64,000 nt of DNA, taken from Acetobacter sp. Lineage in GTDB: Bacteria > Pseudomonadota > Alphaproteobacteria > Acetobacterales > Acetobacteraceae. Position numbers and translations under genes: made by a program. Location: positions 27,892-91,891 of the forward strand of contig JAAYUA010000119.1 in NCBI GenBank assembly GCA_012517935.1, read 5' to 3'. The number at the start of each line of letters is the position of its first letter. The first letter of the stretch is position 1. The notes below the pieces were generated by a model. It made no database searches. It was not told the DNA's origin and worked only from the letters and a program-made list of their open reading frames with translations. Of the stretch, positions 8,339 to 61,433 are shown one piece after another.

Positions 8339-9877
8339 TTACTGGTGGATGCTGGCGGCGGTGATTTCGCCGGCAGGTGAAGGCGTGTGAAGTCCGCTAT
8401 ATTGCAGGACTCCAAAGGACATTGTCTCGTCAGGTGTTGGCAGAAGCTTGTCGTTCCATCCACCGCCAAGGGAACGGATGAGTCCGACAGTTGCCTGCTC
8501 GGCTCTTACCGCGACGCGAACTTCGGATATCCGTGCATCCAGAGCTGCTTCCTGAGCAACAATTGCATCAAGGTAGCTGGACAGACCGCCTCTATAGAGG
8601 GACATCGTCATGTCCTGCATCTGGATTGCCGTGCTGGCGGCACCCTGAAGGCGGATATCTTCTTCGTGAAGAAGTTTGACCCGGGACTGTTCGTTTTCCA
8701 CTTCACGGAATGCTGACAGGATCGTTGCGCGATATGTATCGCAGGTTTCCCGATAGGCAGACCATGAATATTGAAGGGCAGCTCGACGCATGCCGCCTTC
8801 AAAGATAGGCATGGAGGCTGTCGCGCCATAGCTCCACATGCTGTTTGCCAGTGTCGCCAGATTGAAACCACCAGCGTCAAAGCCACCATTCGCATTCAGC
8901 GAGATATGTGGATAAAACGCAGCGCGGGCGATACCGATGGATCGGTTGGCCTGAGCCATTTCCCTTTCTGCGGCTGAAATATCAGGTCTTCTCTGCAGCA
9001 GCTCGGATGGGATGCCCATGGGAATGGCAAGCTTCCGAAATGAGAATTCCGTTTGCGGCGCAATATGGAAATCTTCGGGAGGCGTGTTTGTCAGAACCGC
9101 GATGGCGTGTTCGGTGATTTCCCGTTGCGCCCGGACATCGAGTTCAGCAGCCTCAGCAACAAAAAGCCTGTTCTTGGCACGGGCAACATCAAGCTGCGGA
9201 GCCGCCTGATTCTGAAGCTGCGTTGTCGTCATTTCGACGGCTTTGCGATAGTAATTGACGGATTGGACATAAATTGCGTCCTGCGCATCATATCCGCGCA
9301 GTGCAATGTAATCTTCAGCCAGATCAGCTTCCAGACTCAGGCGAGCGCCTGCAAAATCGGCCGCTTTTTCCTGAGCGGCATATTTCTGCATCCGAACCTG
9401 ATTGCGGATTTCTGACCAGAAATCAGGCTCCCATGATGCCAGTCCACCATAGAAGGTGTCGCTGGCTGTTGTTGCTCCCTTGTAACGGAAAAGGGAGTCA
9501 TCGGATTGCTTATTGTCTGATGCACCAAATGCAATTCCAAAATGTGGAAGCAGGTCGGCACGTGCTTTCATGACCAGAGAGCGTGCCTGCTCGAAGCGTT
9601 CGGCAGCAGCTTTCAGGGTCGTGTTCTCCTTGACGGCCTTGTCTTCCAGATCGTTCAGAACCGGATCGTTCAGCATGGTCCACCAGTTCAGCGGAATCTG
9701 GTCGGCCGCCGGGTTGGCTTTGGCGAAGGGAGCCTGACCATTCCAGCTTGCGGGAACGATATAATGCGGTTTGACCTTTTCATAGGAAGGGGCAAGGTCA
9801 CAGCCGGAGAGTGTGAGGGCAGTCCCCAGTGCAGTGATGCACATGAGGCTGCGACGTATGGCGAGGTTTTTCGTCAT
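8339..9877 (-). CDS. RND efflux outer membrane lipoprotein (NodT/OprM family)
   Basis: Lipobox LTLSGC, then DLAPSYEKVKPHYIVPASW, LNDLEDKAVKENTTLKAAAERFEQAR and RPDISAAEREMAQANRSIGIARAAFYP motifs. Confidence 0.95.
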   Translation of the reverse strand: MTKNLAIRRSLMCITALGTALTLSGCDLAPSYEKVKPHYIVPASWNGQAPFAKANPAADQIPLNWWTMLNDPVLNDLEDKAVKENTTLKAAAERFEQARSLVMKARADLLPHFGIAFGASDNKQSDDSLFRYKGATTASDTFYGGLASWEPDFWSEIRNQVRMQKYAAQEKAADFAGARLSLEADLAEDYIALRGYDAQDAIYVQSVNYYRKAVEMTTTQLQNQAAPQLDVARAKNRLFVAEAAELDVRAQREITEHAIAVLTNTPPEDFHIAPQTEFSFRKLAIPMGIPSELLQRRPDISAAEREMAQANRSIGIARAAFYPHISLNANGGFDAGGFNLATLANSMWSYGATASMPIFEGGMRRAALQYSWSAYRETCDTYRATILSAFREVENEQSRVKLLHEEDIRLQGAASTAIQMQDMTMSLYRGGLSSYLDAIVAQEAALDARISEVRVAVRAEQATVGLIRSLGGGWNDKLLPTPDETMSFGVLQYSGLHTPSPAGEITAASIHQ

Positions 9878-11052
9878 CCTTCAATCTCCTCGTCCTCATT
9901 ATAGCCTTTCGCAGGAACGACAACGCGGACTTGCTGACCTTCGAGAAGATCGGCAGGTGGATTGCGGATGATTTTGTCATCTGCCTGCAGACCGGTCAGG
10001 ACGTCGGTATGTGTGTCAGCCATGCGTCCGGCCTGCACGGACTGGAAGTGAACCTTGTTGTCCTTATCAACAATAGCGACCTGCAATCCGGGTTCCTGGA
10101 AAACCAGAGTGGATGTCGGGATGTTCCATATTCCTTGTTCTGCTGGTGCAGTCAGGTTTACGGAGGCAAAGGTTCCCGGCCAGATCAGATGATCGGGATT
10201 ATCAACGATAAACTCGGTGACAGCTGTTCGTGTATTTGGATCATATCCTTTTGCGACTGTCAGGAAGTGTGCCTGGAAAACCCGTCCCGGAAACTGTGGG
10301 ATGGAAAGCGTGGCGGTCATTCCTGGTTTCAGAATATATGAAAAGCTTTCTGGAACAGACACAAACAGACGCAGTTTGTCCATTGATGAGACGGTGAACA
10401 TCTGCTGGGCATCATTGCCTGCACTATGTCCGCCACCCCCGGCGCTGACATAGTCGCCGACGTTGACATTACGTGATGTTACAAAACCATCAAAAGGAGC
10501 AACGATGGTTTTGAAGTTTTCCAGAGCGGTGAACTGATCAACCGTATGCTGGGCAGCCTGCATTTCTGCGTTGGCAGCTTTTTCGTTCGCATCAGCGACA
10601 GACACGGACTGTCCGGAGACTGCATTCGCCTTGGACATCGCATGCCAGCGATTGGCGCTGACGACTGCGAGGTTGTATTTCGCTTCCTTGGCGGCGAGAT
10701 CGGCTTTTGCCTGTGCATACTGCGCATCAAGGCTTGGTGCATTGATCTGGGCGAGAACATCGCCCGTTTTCACTTCTGCGCCGTAATCCTTGTCCCAGGA
10801 TTTCACATAACCGGATGCCTGAGGATAGATCGGCGCCTGGTACCAGGCATCGACCGTTCCCGGAAGCGTGAGAGAGACTGTCTTCGGGCCGGGTTTGGGC
10901 ATTGTGACCTCTACATCCGGAATGGAGTTGTAGGCAGTCACTTCCCGGACCTCATGCGCATTGTGCATGCGGGAGACGATTACATAGCCTGAGCCTAGCG
11001 CAAGTGCGCCCACGCAGACAGACAGGCTGAGATATTTACTTGCGCGGGCCAT
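9874..11052 (-). CDS. RND efflux periplasmic adaptor subunit
   Basis: LPGTVDAWYQAPIYPQASGYVKSWDKDYGAEVKTGDVLAQI; operon position between permease and OMF genes. Confidence 0.95.
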   Translation of the reverse strand: MARASKYLSLSVCVGALALGSGYVIVSRMHNAHEVREVTAYNSIPDVEVTMPKPGPKTVSLTLPGTVDAWYQAPIYPQASGYVKSWDKDYGAEVKTGDVLAQINAPSLDAQYAQAKADLAAKEAKYNLAVVSANRWHAMSKANAVSGQSVSVADANEKAANAEMQAAQHTVDQFTALENFKTIVAPFDGFVTSRNVNVGDYVSAGGGGHSAGNDAQQMFTVSSMDKLRLFVSVPESFSYILKPGMTATLSIPQFPGRVFQAHFLTVAKGYDPNTRTAVTEFIVDNPDHLIWPGTFASVNLTAPAEQGIWNIPTSTLVFQEPGLQVAIVDKDNKVHFQSVQAGRMADTHTDVLTGLQADDKIIRNPPADLLEGQQVRVVVPAKGYNEDEEIEG

Positions 11053-54081: not shown

Positions 54082-55824
54082 TTGAATGTTTTCTTCCTGT
54101 TTCTTTTAGTGTTTGCAGCCTTGCTGCCGACTGTGCCGTTGCTTGCATGTCGTTTGGGTATAATTTCCCGGACATCTCTGCTGCCTGAAATTCTGATACC
54201 GGCTGCATGGGCCGTTTCAGGATTTTGCGCCGTTATTGCCGGAGGCTTCGGAATGGAGCTGTATCCGGGTGGCGTGATTGCTGGCGATCAGGTGGCTTGG
54301 CTGTTTGTGAGCGTCATCTCTCTTGTCGCGGGAGTATTTCCGGACCGTCGGGCAGGCATTACTGTTCCCTGGTGTGCGGCGCTGCTTGCAAGCCTTGCGC
54401 AGACACCGGCTGCACTGGCGCTTTCCACCGGAGTGGCATTGCTGTCGAGCCGGACGGAAAATGCATTGGACCGGAGTTGTTCGTTTATACTGGCAGTAGC
54501 CTGCGTTACGCCGTCATTTCTGATGAGTGGTCTTTGTCTGGCAAGTGTGATTTTTCTGGCCGGACGAGGGAAATCCAGCGAAGGCAGAACCCTTCTGTCC
54601 TGTGTTCTCGTGATGATGGTTGCTGTCCGGGTTTTCTGTTTTCATACAGTCATATCGGGTGATTTTCTGTCGGGTTTGTGTTTGGCGGGCATTGCAACGG
54701 TTCTCTCCATCATGCTGTGTCTTCTGTCGTTGCGCGCCACGGGAATAAAGCAGTCTCTCGCGGCATTGGCTGCCTGTGGAACAGAATTGCTGCTTGTTGG
54801 CATCGCTCTTGCTGAAGTCGCCCGAGCTGGCGACATGCCGCTGACGGCGCGTGCCGCATTTTCCGCTGTTTTCACAGGATTGACGGCTGGATTGCCGCTT
54901 GTCGCTCTTGCCATGTCAGCGGGTGCTGTTGCTTCGTGGTTGTATGGATCGGATCGTCTGACGCGACTGGGTGCAGTGCAACAGGTGATGCCGCGTCTGT
55001 CGCTGCTTCTCGGTCTGGGACTTTTTTCTCTCAGCTGTTTGCCGCCGTCAGGGATGTTCACGGCGCTCTGGCTGGAGGCGCAGGTCCTTTTGCTGCTGCC
55101 TGCGGATGGCAGTCTTCTCACCATTCTTCCCTGGCGCATTCTGCTGGCGACGCAAGGTCTTGCCTTGGGGTTGGCAGCTCTGGCTGCCTGCCGAGTGGGT
55201 ATTGCTCTGTTTGGCGGATCAGCACCGGATCAACAGCAAGGTGAAATAGCCATTTCTTCTCCGCCGGGCGTCATCATGGTGCCTTTCGTTGTTGTCACGG
55301 TTCTCTGTCTGTTGTTGTCCTTCTTTCCCGGTTTGGTGCTGCACTGGCAGTCAGCTCTGCTTGCACGGATGGCGGGTGGAGAGAGCACGTCTGCTCATTG
55401 GCTGTTTTTGCAGTCGCCTGATGGTCTGTCGATCTGGTCTCCTGAGGCGGTTGGCGGGGTGTTGCTGTGCGCTGCAGCTCTGGTCCTTGGAATACGGCGA
55501 GGATTGAAGCATTATCAGAGCGAAGATGAGGCAACCAATCGTCCGGCAGATGTCTGGAATGGTGGATATGCAGCTGAGAGCAATGTTTCGATGCGTATGC
55601 CGCCCGGTATCGCGTTGTTGTTGCTCGAGTCTGTTGTTTCGGAAGATTTTCAAATTACGTATAAAACTATACGTAATCGTATGTGGAACAATCTGTGCTC
55701 TCTGTATTTTTCCAGTTTCCATAAAGTTTTGTCATATATATTGAATGGGCAGAATATTCTCCCGGTTATGTTCGCGGTGCTTGCTCTGTGCCTCATTATT
55801 GCTGCGCTATGGGGAGGAAATTGA
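54082..55824 (+). CDS. HyfB-like (NuoL/M/N-type) membrane subunit of a hydrogenase-4/Complex-I-related complex
   Basis: Multi-TM protein with the degenerate antiporter-like segment LGAVQQVMPRLSLLLGLGLFSLSCLPPSGMFTALWLEAQVL; first gene of the operon; TTG start. Confidence 0.8.
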   Translation: MNVFFLFLLVFAALLPTVPLLACRLGIISRTSLLPEILIPAAWAVSGFCAVIAGGFGMELYPGGVIAGDQVAWLFVSVISLVAGVFPDRRAGITVPWCAALLASLAQTPAALALSTGVALLSSRTENALDRSCSFILAVACVTPSFLMSGLCLASVIFLAGRGKSSEGRTLLSCVLVMMVAVRVFCFHTVISGDFLSGLCLAGIATVLSIMLCLLSLRATGIKQSLAALAACGTELLLVGIALAEVARAGDMPLTARAAFSAVFTGLTAGLPLVALAMSAGAVASWLYGSDRLTRLGAVQQVMPRLSLLLGLGLFSLSCLPPSGMFTALWLEAQVLLLLPADGSLLTILPWRILLATQGLALGLAALAACRVGIALFGGSAPDQQQGEIAISSPPGVIMVPFVVVTVLCLLLSFFPGLVLHWQSALLARMAGGESTSAHWLFLQSPDGLSIWSPEAVGGVLLCAAALVLGIRRGLKHYQSEDEATNRPADVWNGGYAAESNVSMRMPPGIALLLLESVVSEDFQITYKTIRNRMWNNLCSLYFSSFHKVLSYILNGQNILPVMFAVLALCLIIAALWGGN

Positions 55825-56718
55825 ATGACCGATTTCCTGAACTTCATCATTCTGATGGCGCGACATTTGTTCGGTGTCATTGTGCTGTTGTCTTGCGCGC
55901 CTTTGGCAACTGGATTTTTTGAGTGTGTCAAAAAATATTTTGAAGGGAAAAATTATTTTCCGATTACTGAGCGTTTTCATCTGTATCGGCACCTGATGGG
56001 GATCGACGAGAGTAAGCGAGTGTTTCTGCCTGTTGTGATTTTTGTCCTTTCCTTGGCAATCGCTTTTCTTCTGCCTGTCATTGCGGCCGATGTTCCGGGG
56101 CGAATTGTCGATTTTCCTGGATTATGTGCACTCTTTATCCTGGCGAGGGGGCTTCTTGCCGTTGCGGGTCTTCAGCGCAACTTGTCAGGTCCATTTTCTG
56201 GCGGGCAGTTTGCCATGGTGGACGTTGTTCGTCTTTCGGGTGCTGTTCTCGCCATGCCAGTCATTTATCTGGTGACTGGAGTGTTTTCTGGTGGCGGTTC
56301 AACATTGTTTTCCGCATCAGGCGCGGTGGCACCAGCCATTCTTGCAAGTGCTGCATTGCTGGCGGTTGGGGATCAAAGTCCCATCAAAAACGATCATTTT
56401 TCTAACTATTCATCTGGTGATCGCGCTCTTCTGCTTGTTTCATCTGACATGATATTCATGATGTGGATTATTCTTTGTATTCACAATGTGATTGAAAGAA
56501 TCCTCGTATCTCCGGGGGCGTATTATTTTCATCAGAGTGTGGTGTTTGGCATATCGATTGCAATATCGATGATCGCCATACTTTCACTCATGGCTTTGAT
56601 GTCTCTACCATCGGTTCCCATAATCCGGCGAACGCGTAATATGGCTGGCGCAGCCATGCTGCTGGCCGTGATGAGCATGGTCTTTGCTTCCGTTCAGACG
56701 TCGGCGGGCCTTCCATGA
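55825..56718 (+). CDS. HyfC-like (NuoH-type) membrane subunit
   Basis: LATGFFECVKKYFEGKNYFPITERFHLYRHLMG and GLLAVAGLQRNLSGPFSGGQFAMVDVVRL; stop TGA directly followed by ATG. Confidence 0.75.
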   Translation: MTDFLNFIILMARHLFGVIVLLSCAPLATGFFECVKKYFEGKNYFPITERFHLYRHLMGIDESKRVFLPVVIFVLSLAIAFLLPVIAADVPGRIVDFPGLCALFILARGLLAVAGLQRNLSGPFSGGQFAMVDVVRLSGAVLAMPVIYLVTGVFSGGGSTLFSASGAVAPAILASAALLAVGDQSPIKNDHFSNYSSGDRALLLVSSDMIFMMWIILCIHNVIERILVSPGAYYFHQSVVFGISIAISMIAILSLMALMSLPSVPIIRRTRNMAGAAMLLAVMSMVFASVQTSAGLP

Positions 56719-57305
56719 CGCCGTTATTCGTTGCCGTGCCGCTCTTTGCTGTGTTCGCATTGATCGGAGGTTCATGGCTGCTTGCCCTTCTGGGGATAGG
56801 GATAGCGATTGATCTTCTTTTTCTCAGGATGGCGGGGAATATTGGTGCATATCCTGTCATCAATATTTACGTCGCTGCGGGTTTGATTTTGTTTGGGTCA
56901 TTCATTTCCGCGGTTTTCCTGTCTGGATTGATGAATGAACACAGGCGGTCCGGACGGCTTGTTGTCGCATCTTTGACCTCGGTGCTGCTTGTTGTGATGC
57001 TGGCAGGAGATCGTCTGCTCACTGGCCAGGAAGAGGGGTGGTTTACCGGAATGATGCTCCTCTGCATCGGGTTGTCAGCTCTAGCTGTGGCCCCGGCGGC
57101 GGAACGTCTGGCCGTTTCCATCTTCATAAGCTTGTCCGGTTTTGTCATGATTTCCGCATTTTCAATGGGGTTTTATCATTTCCTCATGATGGGATTGTCA
57201 TGTCTGACGTGCGGGATTCTGACCGTCATGTTTACGCGACGTCTGTCTCTACCGGCTCATGTTTTCGCATCTTCTGATCATGGGGCAGAGGGAGGATTTC
57301 TGTGA
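56715..57305 (+). CDS. HyfE-like (NuoK-type) membrane subunit
   Basis: 196 aa multi-TM protein; ATGA overlap with the preceding gene; position in a hyf-like operon. Confidence 0.65.
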   Translation: MTPLFVAVPLFAVFALIGGSWLLALLGIGIAIDLLFLRMAGNIGAYPVINIYVAAGLILFGSFISAVFLSGLMNEHRRSGRLVVASLTSVLLVVMLAGDRLLTGQEEGWFTGMMLLCIGLSALAVAPAAERLAVSIFISLSGFVMISAFSMGFYHFLMMGLSCLTCGILTVMFTRRLSLPAHVFASSDHGAEGGFL

Positions 57306-58420
57306 GTCTGGCAGCAATCTCCACCCGGACGGCCTTAATATGGCCTGTGCTGTGTTTGCTGGTCACGTCTGTCGGTGTTTTTCTCAAGGGGAACGCCTAT
57401 GGTCGTCTGGCGGGAATAGGTGCGGGCTTGCTGGGGGCTGTGCTGGCCCTTGTTTTTCTGGCCACCGGAATATTATTCGGTATTTCCGTGGGGAAAGGTT
57501 CAATCTTACTCCCTGTCGGCTGGTTATTGCTGTCCTTGTTGTCGCTTCCTCTTTCTCTTTCGTTTTCCTCCCAATTTGAAAATATTCTGAAAGGGAAAGC
57601 AGACCGGAAATTCTTTTTGCCTGTTTTGGGTGGCGCAATTCTGATTGTGATCAGCACGCAGGCTCTTGTTGTCGATGATCCTGTTTTTGCTCTGGTGCTT
57701 CTGCTGGTGATTCAATTATTGGCCGCATGGGAACTGGGGCAGAGAAAAGGCTGGGCCGGAGCGGGGCTGGAGCGTTTGCATGCGTTGGTCGCTGGTGGAG
57801 GGCTTCTTTTACTGGCGCTTGTTCTGGTGTCATCACCATGGTCTGGGAGTGATGAAAGCATCAATGAGCACAGGGTTCTGCTTCTCGCTGAAAGTCTTTT
57901 TTGTGGAGCAGGTTTGTCGATTTTATCTGGCCTCGTTCCCGGCACTTCTTTGACTTTTTCTGTCCAGAAGGATTTTTTTCCAGATTTATTGCGAAAACTG
58001 GCTTTATTTCTTCCATTGGTCACATCAGGAAGCTGGATGGCGATTTGTGGTAATGCCGCAGGTGGTGTTCTTATTTTCTCTGGATGCCTTCTGATCTTGA
58101 AACAGATTATTTCCGGATCTTCAGATAGAAAAACAAAAGGCGGAAAAATCGGGTTTGCGGCCATTGCCGCGGGATTAAATGATCCGATAGCAACTGCATT
58201 GATCCTGTCGGATATTTGCATTTCAGGAAATCAGTTTTTTGAATCTGAAAGAAAATTTCTGAGAATCATAAAATTGATGGGATATTGTTTATCCAGCGCT
58301 GGTCTGCTGTTCCTGCTTGTGGATGTGTCGTCATATTCACTGATGCTTTCATTCATTGTTCTTGTTTTTATTATTTTTCTCTCAGAAATTCTGAAATATC
58401 CAGAGTTCGACAATGAGTGA
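57302..58420 (+). CDS. HyfF-like (NuoL/M/N-type) membrane subunit, short and divergent
   Basis: 372 aa multi-TM protein; GTGA overlap with the preceding gene; assignment is mainly positional. Confidence 0.6.
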   Translation: MSLAAISTRTALIWPVLCLLVTSVGVFLKGNAYGRLAGIGAGLLGAVLALVFLATGILFGISVGKGSILLPVGWLLLSLLSLPLSLSFSSQFENILKGKADRKFFLPVLGGAILIVISTQALVVDDPVFALVLLLVIQLLAAWELGQRKGWAGAGLERLHALVAGGGLLLLALVLVSSPWSGSDESINEHRVLLLAESLFCGAGLSILSGLVPGTSLTFSVQKDFFPDLLRKLALFLPLVTSGSWMAICGNAAGGVLIFSGCLLILKQIISGSSDRKTKGGKIGFAAIAAGLNDPIATALILSDICISGNQFFESERKFLRIIKLMGYCLSSAGLLFLLVDVSSYSLMLSFIVLVFIIFLSEILKYPEFDNE

Positions 58421-59996
58421 TTCATATCGTCTTCCTGCAACCGTTGTTTCTTCCGGGAAAAAGTTACGCTCGGTAAAAGAAATTATTTGTCAGGGAGAAA
58501 AGACATCTCCGTCCTGGGCATATCTTCTCGGGGAATATGAATGGCGTTCTCTGGGCGAGGTTCTTGAGGAAGAACGTTACCTTTTTTCAGGTCTGTGGTG
58601 CGATGGACAGCGTATTCTAGCCCTTTTCCGATGGAGAAGCGGAGAAGTTCTGATGGCTGTTCATGTTCCGGAAGGCCCGCGATATCCCGCTTTATCGACA
58701 ACGGTTCCAGCTGCTTTGCCATTTGAGCGGGTTATCCGGGATCTTTATGGTTTCGAAGCGATGGGTGCCGAGGATATGCGTCCTCTCATTAATCGCGGTG
58801 CCTGGCCTGTTTCATGGCCGCTGGCTCTCAGGCCGGGCCTTGCAGGATGCGAGGAGGACGATTTCGAAGTTAGGCTTTTCTCTGACGACGATCGTGAATT
58901 TCTGCTGATTTCTGGCCCTGCATCAGGTGCTTCAGAAGCGTCAGCGCTGTTCAGGCAGAGTGTATCCGATCTGAAAGTTTCCGGGTCGGAAACGATCCGT
59001 GGTTTTACGCACAGAGGCATTGCTGCACGCATGATGGGAGCCTCTCTGGAAGAGGCTGTTGTTCTTGCCGGGCGTATTGCAGCCTCTGCGGTGGTTGCTC
59101 ATCAATGGACATTCTGTGCAGCAGTCGAACAGATATCGGGCTTTCAGATCAGTGAATCCGCACTTCTGGTGAGAGCAGTTTTTGCAGAAATAGAACGTAT
59201 ATTGTCGCATTTTCGGATTTTGGCGCGTGTCGCGCGATATGCGGATGCCGGATTGCCCGCACAACGAATGTCTGAGGCCCGAGAAGCTGTATTGCAGGTC
59301 TTTTCGGAGTGCATGGGGCGTCGCTCCCTGATGGATATGGTAGTTTTGGGAGGTGTGAATATTCCATCGCCGGACATAGAGGATGATGTCGCCCGTATCG
59401 GTATTATTCATGATCTTGCAAAGAATATTGCCGATCTTGTCGATGAGTCATTATTCGTTCTGCGACCTCTCTGGCAGAGTTATCCGGGTCTGCTCGTGCG
59501 TTTGCGGGGGCTTGGGCCTGTTTGCTCTGAAGATGTGATGGTGAGGGGAGTGACGGGGCCGGTAGCTCGCGCTTCGGGTTTGGGAAGGGATCTGCGCAGT
59601 CAGGCCTCCCCATGGGTGAATGCTGGCATGCAGGTGCAGTCACAGAGGGAAGGGGATGTCGTTGCCCGTTGCCGACAGTTGTTTGCGGAGTGTCAGGAAA
59701 GCGCACGTCTTCTGAATCTGTTTGCGGAGCGTTTGACGCATGTTTCTGCGGATGTGCCTTTGCGACACATATTCCATCCTGAAAATGGCTGGGGACATGC
59801 CGTAACTGAAGGGCCTGCGGGTGTTGTGGAGGTTGTGCTTCATCTGAAAGAAGGAAGACCAGCTTCTGTAATGATGCGTGATCCGTCTGTGGAACTCATC
59901 CCACTGGCGGATCGGGCATTGAAAGGCGTGATGCCGGAAGATATTGCAGCGGTTCGGAACTCCTTTGGTTTTTCAATATCTGCGGCGGATATGTGA
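58413..59996 (+). CDS. HyfG-like fused NuoC-NuoD large subunit lacking NiFe-binding cysteines
   Basis: NuoC-like PAALPFERVIRDLYGFEAMGAEDMRPLINRGAWPVSWPL; NuoD/HyfG-like GFTHRGIAARMMGASLEEAVVLAGRIAASAVVAHQWTFCAAVEQISG; C-terminus NSFGFSISAADM. Confidence 0.85.
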   Translation: MSDSYRLPATVVSSGKKLRSVKEIICQGEKTSPSWAYLLGEYEWRSLGEVLEEERYLFSGLWCDGQRILALFRWRSGEVLMAVHVPEGPRYPALSTTVPAALPFERVIRDLYGFEAMGAEDMRPLINRGAWPVSWPLALRPGLAGCEEDDFEVRLFSDDDREFLLISGPASGASEASALFRQSVSDLKVSGSETIRGFTHRGIAARMMGASLEEAVVLAGRIAASAVVAHQWTFCAAVEQISGFQISESALLVRAVFAEIERILSHFRILARVARYADAGLPAQRMSEAREAVLQVFSECMGRRSLMDMVVLGGVNIPSPDIEDDVARIGIIHDLAKNIADLVDESLFVLRPLWQSYPGLLVRLRGLGPVCSEDVMVRGVTGPVARASGLGRDLRSQASPWVNAGMQVQSQREGDVVARCRQLFAECQESARLLNLFAERLTHVSADVPLRHIFHPENGWGHAVTEGPAGVVEVVLHLKEGRPASVMMRDPSVELIPLADRALKGVMPEDIAAVRNSFGFSISAADM

Positions 59997-60012
59997 AAAG
60001 GCTCCATGCACC

Positions 60013-60498
60013 ATGATGAAGATACGGGCATTGCTGACCGGGTTGCATGAAGGCGTGTTTCCACGGCTCCCCGAGGTTTCACGCGGAAAGGGGGAGTTTT
60101 CTCTCTTTCATGTCGATGCGGGTGGATGCGATGGTTGCGCGATGGAGATCGAAAGCCTGCGCTATGGTGGCTGGAACCCGGAAAAATATGGTCTTCATTT
60201 TCATGAGACACCGACCAGTGCTGATTTTCTTCTGATAACCGGTGTTTGCACGCACGCCATGATGCCTGTGGTGCGAGCCGCATGGGCGGCAATGGCCCGG
60301 CCCGCGGGCCTGATTGCGGCGGGTGCGTGTGCGATGGATGGCGGACCATTTCAGAGAAATTATGCAACATTGCCGGGCCTGAGAGGGAGCGTCACACCCT
60401 CTCTGGAAATTCCGGGTTGCCCGGTCTCGCCGGGTGATTTCCTGTCGGCTCTCTCCACGCTACTCGGCAACGGAGGTTCATCCGCTCAGGAAGGATGA
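60013..60498 (+). CDS. HyfI/NuoB-like [4Fe-4S] small subunit
   Basis: FHVDAGGCDGCAMEIESL (CxxC), AAGACAMDGG and IPGCPVSPGDFL: all four cluster-ligand cysteine positions present. Confidence 0.88.
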   Translation: MMKIRALLTGLHEGVFPRLPEVSRGKGEFSLFHVDAGGCDGCAMEIESLRYGGWNPEKYGLHFHETPTSADFLLITGVCTHAMMPVVRAAWAAMARPAGLIAAGACAMDGGPFQRNYATLPGLRGSVTPSLEIPGCPVSPGDFLSALSTLLGNGGSSAQEG

Positions 60499-61433
60499 GA
60501 GTCTTTCGTTGGGGCCAGAATTTCCGGTTGCTCATCCGGAAATTCCTGCATCTCCTCTGCCGCGCGGCGCAGACGGTGAAAGCTGCGACGGCTGAAGGGA
60601 AGCATGGCGATATAGATCACGCCCGCTGCTGCCAGAGCGCCCCAGGGATCAGCGACGAGGGCCACGGCATAACACACTGTGCCAAGCATGAGTGGCAGGA
60701 CGAAGCGGGCAGGGACCTTGAAATTCTTGAAGGACCAGACAGGCAGTGTGGACACAAGCAGCAACGCTGTGCCTGAGAGAGTCAAAGCATTTAGCATTGG
60801 CTGGTGGCTGAACTCCTCAATGGGAGCATAGCCCAGAGTATCGGCTTCAAGGCCGAGAAACAGAGGAAACAGCGCCAGACCAGCTCCGGCAGGTGCGGGA
60901 ACGCCAGTGAAGAAATTACTGGCATAGCGCGGACGTTCATCCTGATCGTCCAGCCCTGCATTGAAGCGGGCAAGTCTGAGCGACATGCACACTGTGAACA
61001 TCAGGCACGGGAGGAAGGCGTAGCGTCCGGCGTTCTGCAATGACCACAGATAGAGAATGAATGAAGGCGCAACGCCAAAGCAGCAGAAGTCGGACAGGCT
61101 GTCGAACTCTGCTCCAAAGCGGGTGGAACCGCGCAGAAAACGGGCGATACGACCATCAAGACCGTCAATCACAGCTGAAATCAGCAGTGCTATTGCGGCG
61201 TAACGGAACTTCCCTTCCAGACCAAAACGCATCGCCAGCAGCCCGGAACACAGACCGATCATGGTCAGGAGATTGGGGATGAGGCGATTGAACGAAGGTC
61301 CCCGGACCCTGTTTCGGGGCAGCCGTTTCAATCTGGGGCGCGGGCGTTGTCGAGGAAGCGTCACCGAGGGAAAGCCTCTCGAAAGTGGCAGGATATCATG
61401 CGCTGAGAATAGCCATGACGGTTTCGCCGCCAA
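60486..61433 (-). CDS. pssA: CDP-diacylglycerol--serine O-phosphatidyltransferase
   Basis: IDGLDGRIARFLRGSTRFGAEFDSLSDFCCFGVAPSFILY (CDP-alcohol phosphatidyltransferase motif); start uncertain. Confidence 0.95.
   Translation of the reverse strand: MAAKPSWLFSAHDILPLSRGFPSVTLPRQRPRPRLKRLPRNRVRGPSFNRLIPNLLTMIGLCSGLLAMRFGLEGKFRYAAIALLISAVIDGLDGRIARFLRGSTRFGAEFDSLSDFCCFGVAPSFILYLWSLQNAGRYAFLPCLMFTVCMSLRLARFNAGLDDQDERPRYASNFFTGVPAPAGAGLALFPLFLGLEADTLGYAPIEEFSHQPMLNALTLSGTALLLVSTLPVWSFKNFKVPARFVLPLMLGTVCYAVALVADPWGALAAAGVIYIAMLPFSRRSFHRLRRAAEEMQEFPDEQPEILAPTKDSHPS

Follow-up and report, generated by a model that had tools for sequence, protein, structure and literature searches.

We found that a six-gene operon in a 64,000-nucleotide stretch of Acetobacter DNA (the window) is, judged by its sequence, not an ordinary energy-converting-hydrogenase-related (Ehr) complex but a stripped form of one. 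Its job in acetic acid bacteria is probably neither hydrogen metabolism nor proton pumping. By published definition, Ehr complexes are homologous to group 4 hydrogenase subunits and lack the NiFe ligands (PMC6349859, PMC10284858), and both hold for the window operon. Ehr complexes without NiFe ligands have been reported (PMC6349859, PMC10284858, PMC12342949, PMC7894505, PMC6688271). The class is already known, and the stripped form is a variant that we did not find described in the open-licence literature. In those papers we found no description of the operon in acetic acid bacteria; a screen in G. oxydans does not mention a hydrogenase or hyf gene.

Subunit homology and predicted folds

The operon (54082-60498, forward strand) consists of six coupled genes homologous to HyfB-C-E-F-G-I. 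They are joined by TGA/ATG at 55822-55827, ATGA at 56715, GTGA at 57302 and an 8-bp overlap at 58413-58420. This order and coupling had been proposed in a preliminary description of the sequence, and both ORF coordinates and homology tests bore them out. Its feature list was also correct; the loss of membrane-arm residues described below had escaped it. Because relatives start there, the first codon of HyfI is probably ATG 60013 or 60016 and not TTG 59944, from which its residue numbers (C62, C65, C129, C159) are counted.

Table 1. Features of the stripped operon and its convergent neighbour in the window
Feature	Position	Strand	Remarks
HyfB/NuoL-like membrane subunit	54082..55824	+	580 aa
HyfC/NuoH-like membrane subunit	55825..56718	+	297 aa
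HyfE/NuoK-like membrane subunit	56715..57305	+	196 aa
HyfF-like antiporter-type subunit	57302..58420	+	372 aa
HyfG large subunit	58413..59996	+	527 aa, NuoC+NuoD-like fold, NiFe ligands absent
Ser171 of HyfG, at GPxH histidine position	58923..58925	+	
Former L1 motif of HyfG, RIAASAVVAHQ	59073..59105	+	
Former L2 motif of HyfG, SFGFSISAADM	59961..59993	+	C-terminus
HyfI small subunit	60013..60498	+	ORF open from 59944
CDGC, HyfI [4Fe-4S] cysteines C62 and C65	60127..60138	+	
Third HyfI [4Fe-4S] cysteine, C129	60328..60330	+	
Fourth HyfI [4Fe-4S] cysteine, C159	60418..60420	+	
pssA homologue	60486..61433	-	Convergent with hyfI, overlaps hyfI 3' end; named from sequence, not from a family search

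HyfG matched Pfam Complex1_49kDa (6.9e-19), HyfI matched Pfam Oxidored_q6 (5e-18) and HyfB matched NCBIfam hyfB at 4.5e-14, under that model's curated cut-off. As single sequences, HyfC, HyfE and HyfF had no family matches in Pfam or NCBIfam. Profiles of the window's clade were then compared with those of canonical Hyf subunits in two rounds, and the probabilities against the respective counterparts were 99.6 (HyfB), 99.6 (HyfC), 94.8 (HyfE), 96.7 (HyfF), 100 (HyfG) and 100 (HyfI). Non-matching controls stayed below 1%, except for HyfB against HyfF, which are paralogues. The HyfF comparison first gave 5%, and reached 96.7% (E-value 4.6e-10) with larger member sets that included the intermediates described below. 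By profile, HyfB and HyfF are homologues of Mrp antiporter-like membrane subunits, as in other Ehr complexes; the antiporter fold of HyfF is putative. Predicted helix numbers of the membrane subunits were similar to those of their homologues.

HyfG is predicted to be well folded although the NiFe ligands are absent: its AlphaFold2 model (pLDDT 80.5, pTM 0.85) was closest, among PDB structures, to the formate hydrogenlyase subunit HycE (7z0s chain E, TM 0.79). The HyfF model was of low confidence (pLDDT 65, pTM 0.42); its top Foldseek matches were mostly NuoL/ND5 chains, all with E >= 0.12, and the HyfF profile had no match among PDB sequences.

The former NiFe site

Aligned with E. coli HycE/HyfG, the large subunit reads RIAASAVVAH for RVCGICGFAH and SFGFSISAADM for SLDPCYSCTDR. 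It thus has AASA for CGIC and SISA for CYSC, as the preliminary description had read both sites. That description had also named CxxC pairs elsewhere in HyfG as a finding that would overturn its reading; no CxxC occurs anywhere in the protein, and an L1 or L2 pair was kept in none of 45 stripped HyfG sequences. Maturation genes, none of which the preliminary description had found in the window, were followed through HypD, the only one searched: the window genome (G000) as a whole lacks it, as do 32 of 41 genomes of the genus. In the window genome, no protein scored over the cut-off as a NiFe hydrogenase large subunit. The two CxxC pairs and the maturation machinery that mark group 4 [NiFe]-hydrogenases, the latter judged by HypD, are therefore lacking, and the hydrogenase reading was rejected. 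Nine of the 41 Acetobacter genomes do carry HypD (G002, G005, G006, G012, G016, G021, G306, G309, G310), and some of these may encode a genuine NiFe hydrogenase elsewhere.

The six-gene operons of Azospirillum, Rhizobium and other genera of the family have SGDSTVAH and NCSYSG[HV]DL at the former NiFe ligands. The Acidithiobacillus motifs SGD[TS].. and SYSGHDL are close to these (PMC6002666), and such signature residues (PMC6002666) are no formal criterion of the Ehr class. In an alignment-free search, the L1 signature (SGDSTVAH) was found in 0/47 stripped loci versus 9/10 canonical loci, and the L2 signature (NCSYSG[HV]DL) in 0/47 versus 10/10. The L1 region accordingly takes three forms, RIAASAVVAHQ in the window, RVCGICGFAHS in HycE and R.SGDSTVAH in canonical Ehr, as does the L2 region (SFGFSISAADM, SLDPCYSCTDR and SFNCSYSG[HV]DL, respectively). 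The GPxH column holds His in 12 of 12 canonical Ehr sequences and in HycE/HyfG, and Ser171 in the window HyfG; among 45 stripped HyfG sequences, His was not one of the four commonest residues there. The quinone-site His and Tyr of NuoD correspond to Ser171 and an Ala in HyfG.

The membrane arm

The losses extend to the membrane subunits. HyfB lacks the TM5 Glu, the TM7-8 motif K..G..PLH.W..H and the TM12 motif NH..FK, and has 580 residues versus 672-686 in E. coli, Azospirillum and Rhizobium. From HyfF the TM5 Glu and the K..GL.PLHAW and HS.TK motifs are gone, and its length is 372 residues versus 477-526 in canonical relatives. The conserved loop DNPATHLELTMVHEAMVLEYSG of HyfC is deleted or substituted, and HyfE has lost the conserved Glu of ENG. 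Few of the charged or polar residues of canonical membrane subunits remain conserved in the stripped form, and no invariant charged residue was found in HyfF across 20 sequences. The split between canonical and stripped loci in these motifs was consistent over 62 loci. Pfam recognised three ordinary antiporter-type subunits in the window genome and neither HyfB nor HyfF.

The alignment-free pattern search served as a check for an alignment artefact behind the motif loss, and in it the TM7-8 antiporter motif occurred in 0/47 stripped versus 10/10 canonical loci. Only the longer patterns discriminate in this search; short ones, such as CxxC and the TM12 pattern, find chance matches elsewhere in the loci. 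The absence of ion pumping by the known route is well supported by these sequence comparisons, though protons could move through other residues, invisible to sequence motifs. With the Ehr-site motifs, the GPxH His and the Lys/His/Glu translocation motifs all lost, the question of which ion the stripped complex couples to is probably misplaced. The preliminary description of an Ehr-like membrane redox complex therefore holds as regards a non-hydrogenase of the Ehr kind; the coupled redox/ion pump that it implied is not supported, the motifs having been lost.

In loci L121-L133, whose genera lack Complex I, hyfC is preceded by an even shorter gene (about 430-490 aa), which only a profile comparison connects with stripped HyfB.

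Origin and distribution of the stripped form

Loci were extracted in two passes with iterated profiles, two HyfG trees were built, and 47 loci of the window's clade were compared with 10-12 canonical Ehr loci. The labels canonical, stripped and intermediate were set after the motif table had been viewed, so that the alignment-free contrasts above describe groups that are partly motif-defined. The whole-protein tree supports the grouping independently, with the motif columns left in during tree building. Three loci (L125, L135, L139) were intermediate in the first tree and stripped in the second, having been relabelled after the first tree and their motifs had placed them there.

In the tree of 41 HyfG sequences the stripped form makes up one clade with support 100/100, and hence has a single origin. 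Canonical Ehr forms the background of the tree, the stripped clade is nested inside the family's Ehr, and the intermediates lie just outside it. Five intermediate loci (L106, L107, L109, L117, L141), which branch off close to the stripped clade's base, have lost the canonical motifs in part; it is possible that they represent a stepwise loss series.

Of 49 genomes of the genus, 47 gave a HyfI homologue (E <= 1e-15); the two misses are a genome that is 68% complete and G012, in which the operon is nevertheless present. The operon is intact across the genus, also in genomes of 1.5-2 Mb. HyfG homologues were found in 120 of 150 family genomes from 102 genera, a count that includes canonical forms, as only the fetched loci were classified. 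In two cases hyfG is split: L055/L165 (Acetobacter okinawensis JCM 25146), where other ORFs of L055 are split too, and L056 (G010). These are either pseudogenes or assembly errors.

Where the flank is long enough, almost every stripped locus stands tail-to-tail with pssA-psd (L135 is an exception and L129 is cut), and this convergence was absent from every canonical or intermediate locus compared. As a conserved neighbour, pssA would be a putative member of the system at most.

The window genome encodes a separate NuoD. In eight complete genomes the stripped operon encodes the sole Complex1_49kDa protein, and because it persists in these genomes without Complex I, the idea that it is a Complex I accessory was rejected.

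Retained residues and selection

The preliminary description had taken the four Cys of the small subunit as cluster ligands. We located them at C62, C65, C129 and C159 of HyfI and found all four [4Fe-4S] cysteines kept in 44 of 44 stripped HyfI sequences. About 50 HyfG positions are conserved in stripped and canonical forms alike, including H200, R221, E259, E261, R262, R304, D393 and R395. Most pairs of Acetobacter loci gave dN/dS of 0.03-0.2, with higher values where some pairs are close or evolve faster (at most 0.44, L162 versus L167). The stripped operon evolves mostly under purifying selection.

In genus g116 of the same family (L108 in G140, L168 in G194, L169 in G195), three of the four [4Fe-4S] cysteines are gone from HyfI and the operon is kept. 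The HyfI ORFs lie near 10074-10700, 10264-10890 and 9813-10439, respectively, and show the sequences GGG[SG]AC, GDG and PGSPP and a HyfI dN/dS of 0.37-0.51. The g116 complex may have no redox role, and the loss of these cysteines while the operon persists makes a non-redox role conceivable more widely.

Discussion

In comparison with known systems, canonical Ehr is nearest: it has the same six subunits in the same order, no NiFe ligands, the four HyfI cysteines and no ferredoxin-type subunit in the operon. The window's clade differs from it in having neither SGDSTVAH nor NCSYSG[HV]DL, no GPxH His and no ion-translocation motifs, and in its shorter HyfB and HyfF. The E. coli group 4 [NiFe]-hydrogenases Hyf and Hyc share homologous HyfB, C, E, F, G and I, and HycE is closest to HyfG in fold, whereas the window complex lacks the L1/L2 cysteines, its operon has no HyfA, HyfD, HyfH or HyfJ, and its genome no HypD. 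Complex I (NuoB, NuoC, NuoD, NuoH, NuoK, NuoL) resembles it in the HyfG and HyfI fold and in the cluster site; unlike Complex I, the window operon has no NADH-oxidising subunits, no GPxH His and no NuoD Tyr at the L1 position.

Since the cluster ligands are retained, a redox role is indicated, and for this reason we favour, at about even probability, a membrane-anchored, non-pumping electron relay or redox sensor with a single cluster. The HyfG-HyfI pair would sit on a membrane base of HyfB, C, E and F and would take or give single electrons via one [4Fe-4S] cluster. Electrons would be transferred without ion translocation, the complex acting as a relay or as a redox sensor held at the membrane, with a partner presumably encoded away from the operon. 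More tentatively, a complex of the Complex I superfamily that neither pumps ions nor performs catalysis at a NiFe or quinone site might have been retained throughout acetic acid bacteria as a membrane-anchored [4Fe-4S] redox sensor or a scaffold; if so, it would be a new use of Complex I architecture.

The loss of catalytic and pumping residues would also suit a repurposed scaffold or assembly platform, in which shape and cluster survive purely for stability and the complex organises other membrane proteins or the synthesis of lipids. We regard this as rather unlikely. The tail-to-tail position with pssA-psd, shared by almost all stripped loci of sufficient flank length and by none of the canonical or intermediate ones, and the loss of three cluster cysteines in g116 speak for it, but the adjacency of convergent genes can last without a functional link, and the cysteines are invariant in stripped HyfI. 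A working energy-coupled Ehr, in which oxidation of a cytoplasmic donor drives ion pumping, has been proposed in print for Ehr in general (PMC6349859) and would agree with the homology and similar helix numbers of the membrane subunits. For Ehr, the papers we read contain no demonstration of redox activity coupled to ion translocation. Such a pump is improbable here: HyfB and HyfF are without their TM5, TM7-8 and TM12 motifs, the HyfC loop and the HyfE Glu are missing, and HyfF has no invariant charged residue.

Fast divergence, motif loss and the split hyfG of two assemblies (G005, G010) might be taken as signs of a decaying, functionless remnant. This is very improbable for an operon that is intact across the genus, including genomes of 1.5-2 Mb, retained over many genera and with dN/dS well under 1. 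We give least credence to a formate-linked complex, which would serve a formate dehydrogenase as electron-transfer base, an idea put forward for Ehr of Geobacter and others. Ehr subunits do increase on formate in Geobacter sulfurreducens (PMC7894505), and an FDH-Ehr has been proposed (PMC6349859). However, there is no FDH gene beside the operon, the small genomes G012 and G016 keep the operon with just weak Fdh-alpha matches, and Fdh-alpha was over the cut-off in 0 of 41 Acetobacter genomes, leaving a canonical formate dehydrogenase partner unsupported.

Ehr complexes are widespread, and a clade that has dropped both active-site signature and pumping motifs, with the cluster site kept under selection, sets the parts of the complex apart; the family also includes intermediate stages of motif loss. 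If these bacteria need the stripped Ehr, it cannot be for hydrogenase activity and is hardly likely to be for ion pumping. In a 2026 paper the Ehr of Geobacter is described as nonfunctional for want of NiFe ligands (PMC13194489); purifying selection on the stripped Ehr argues against equating the absence of these ligands with loss of function in general.
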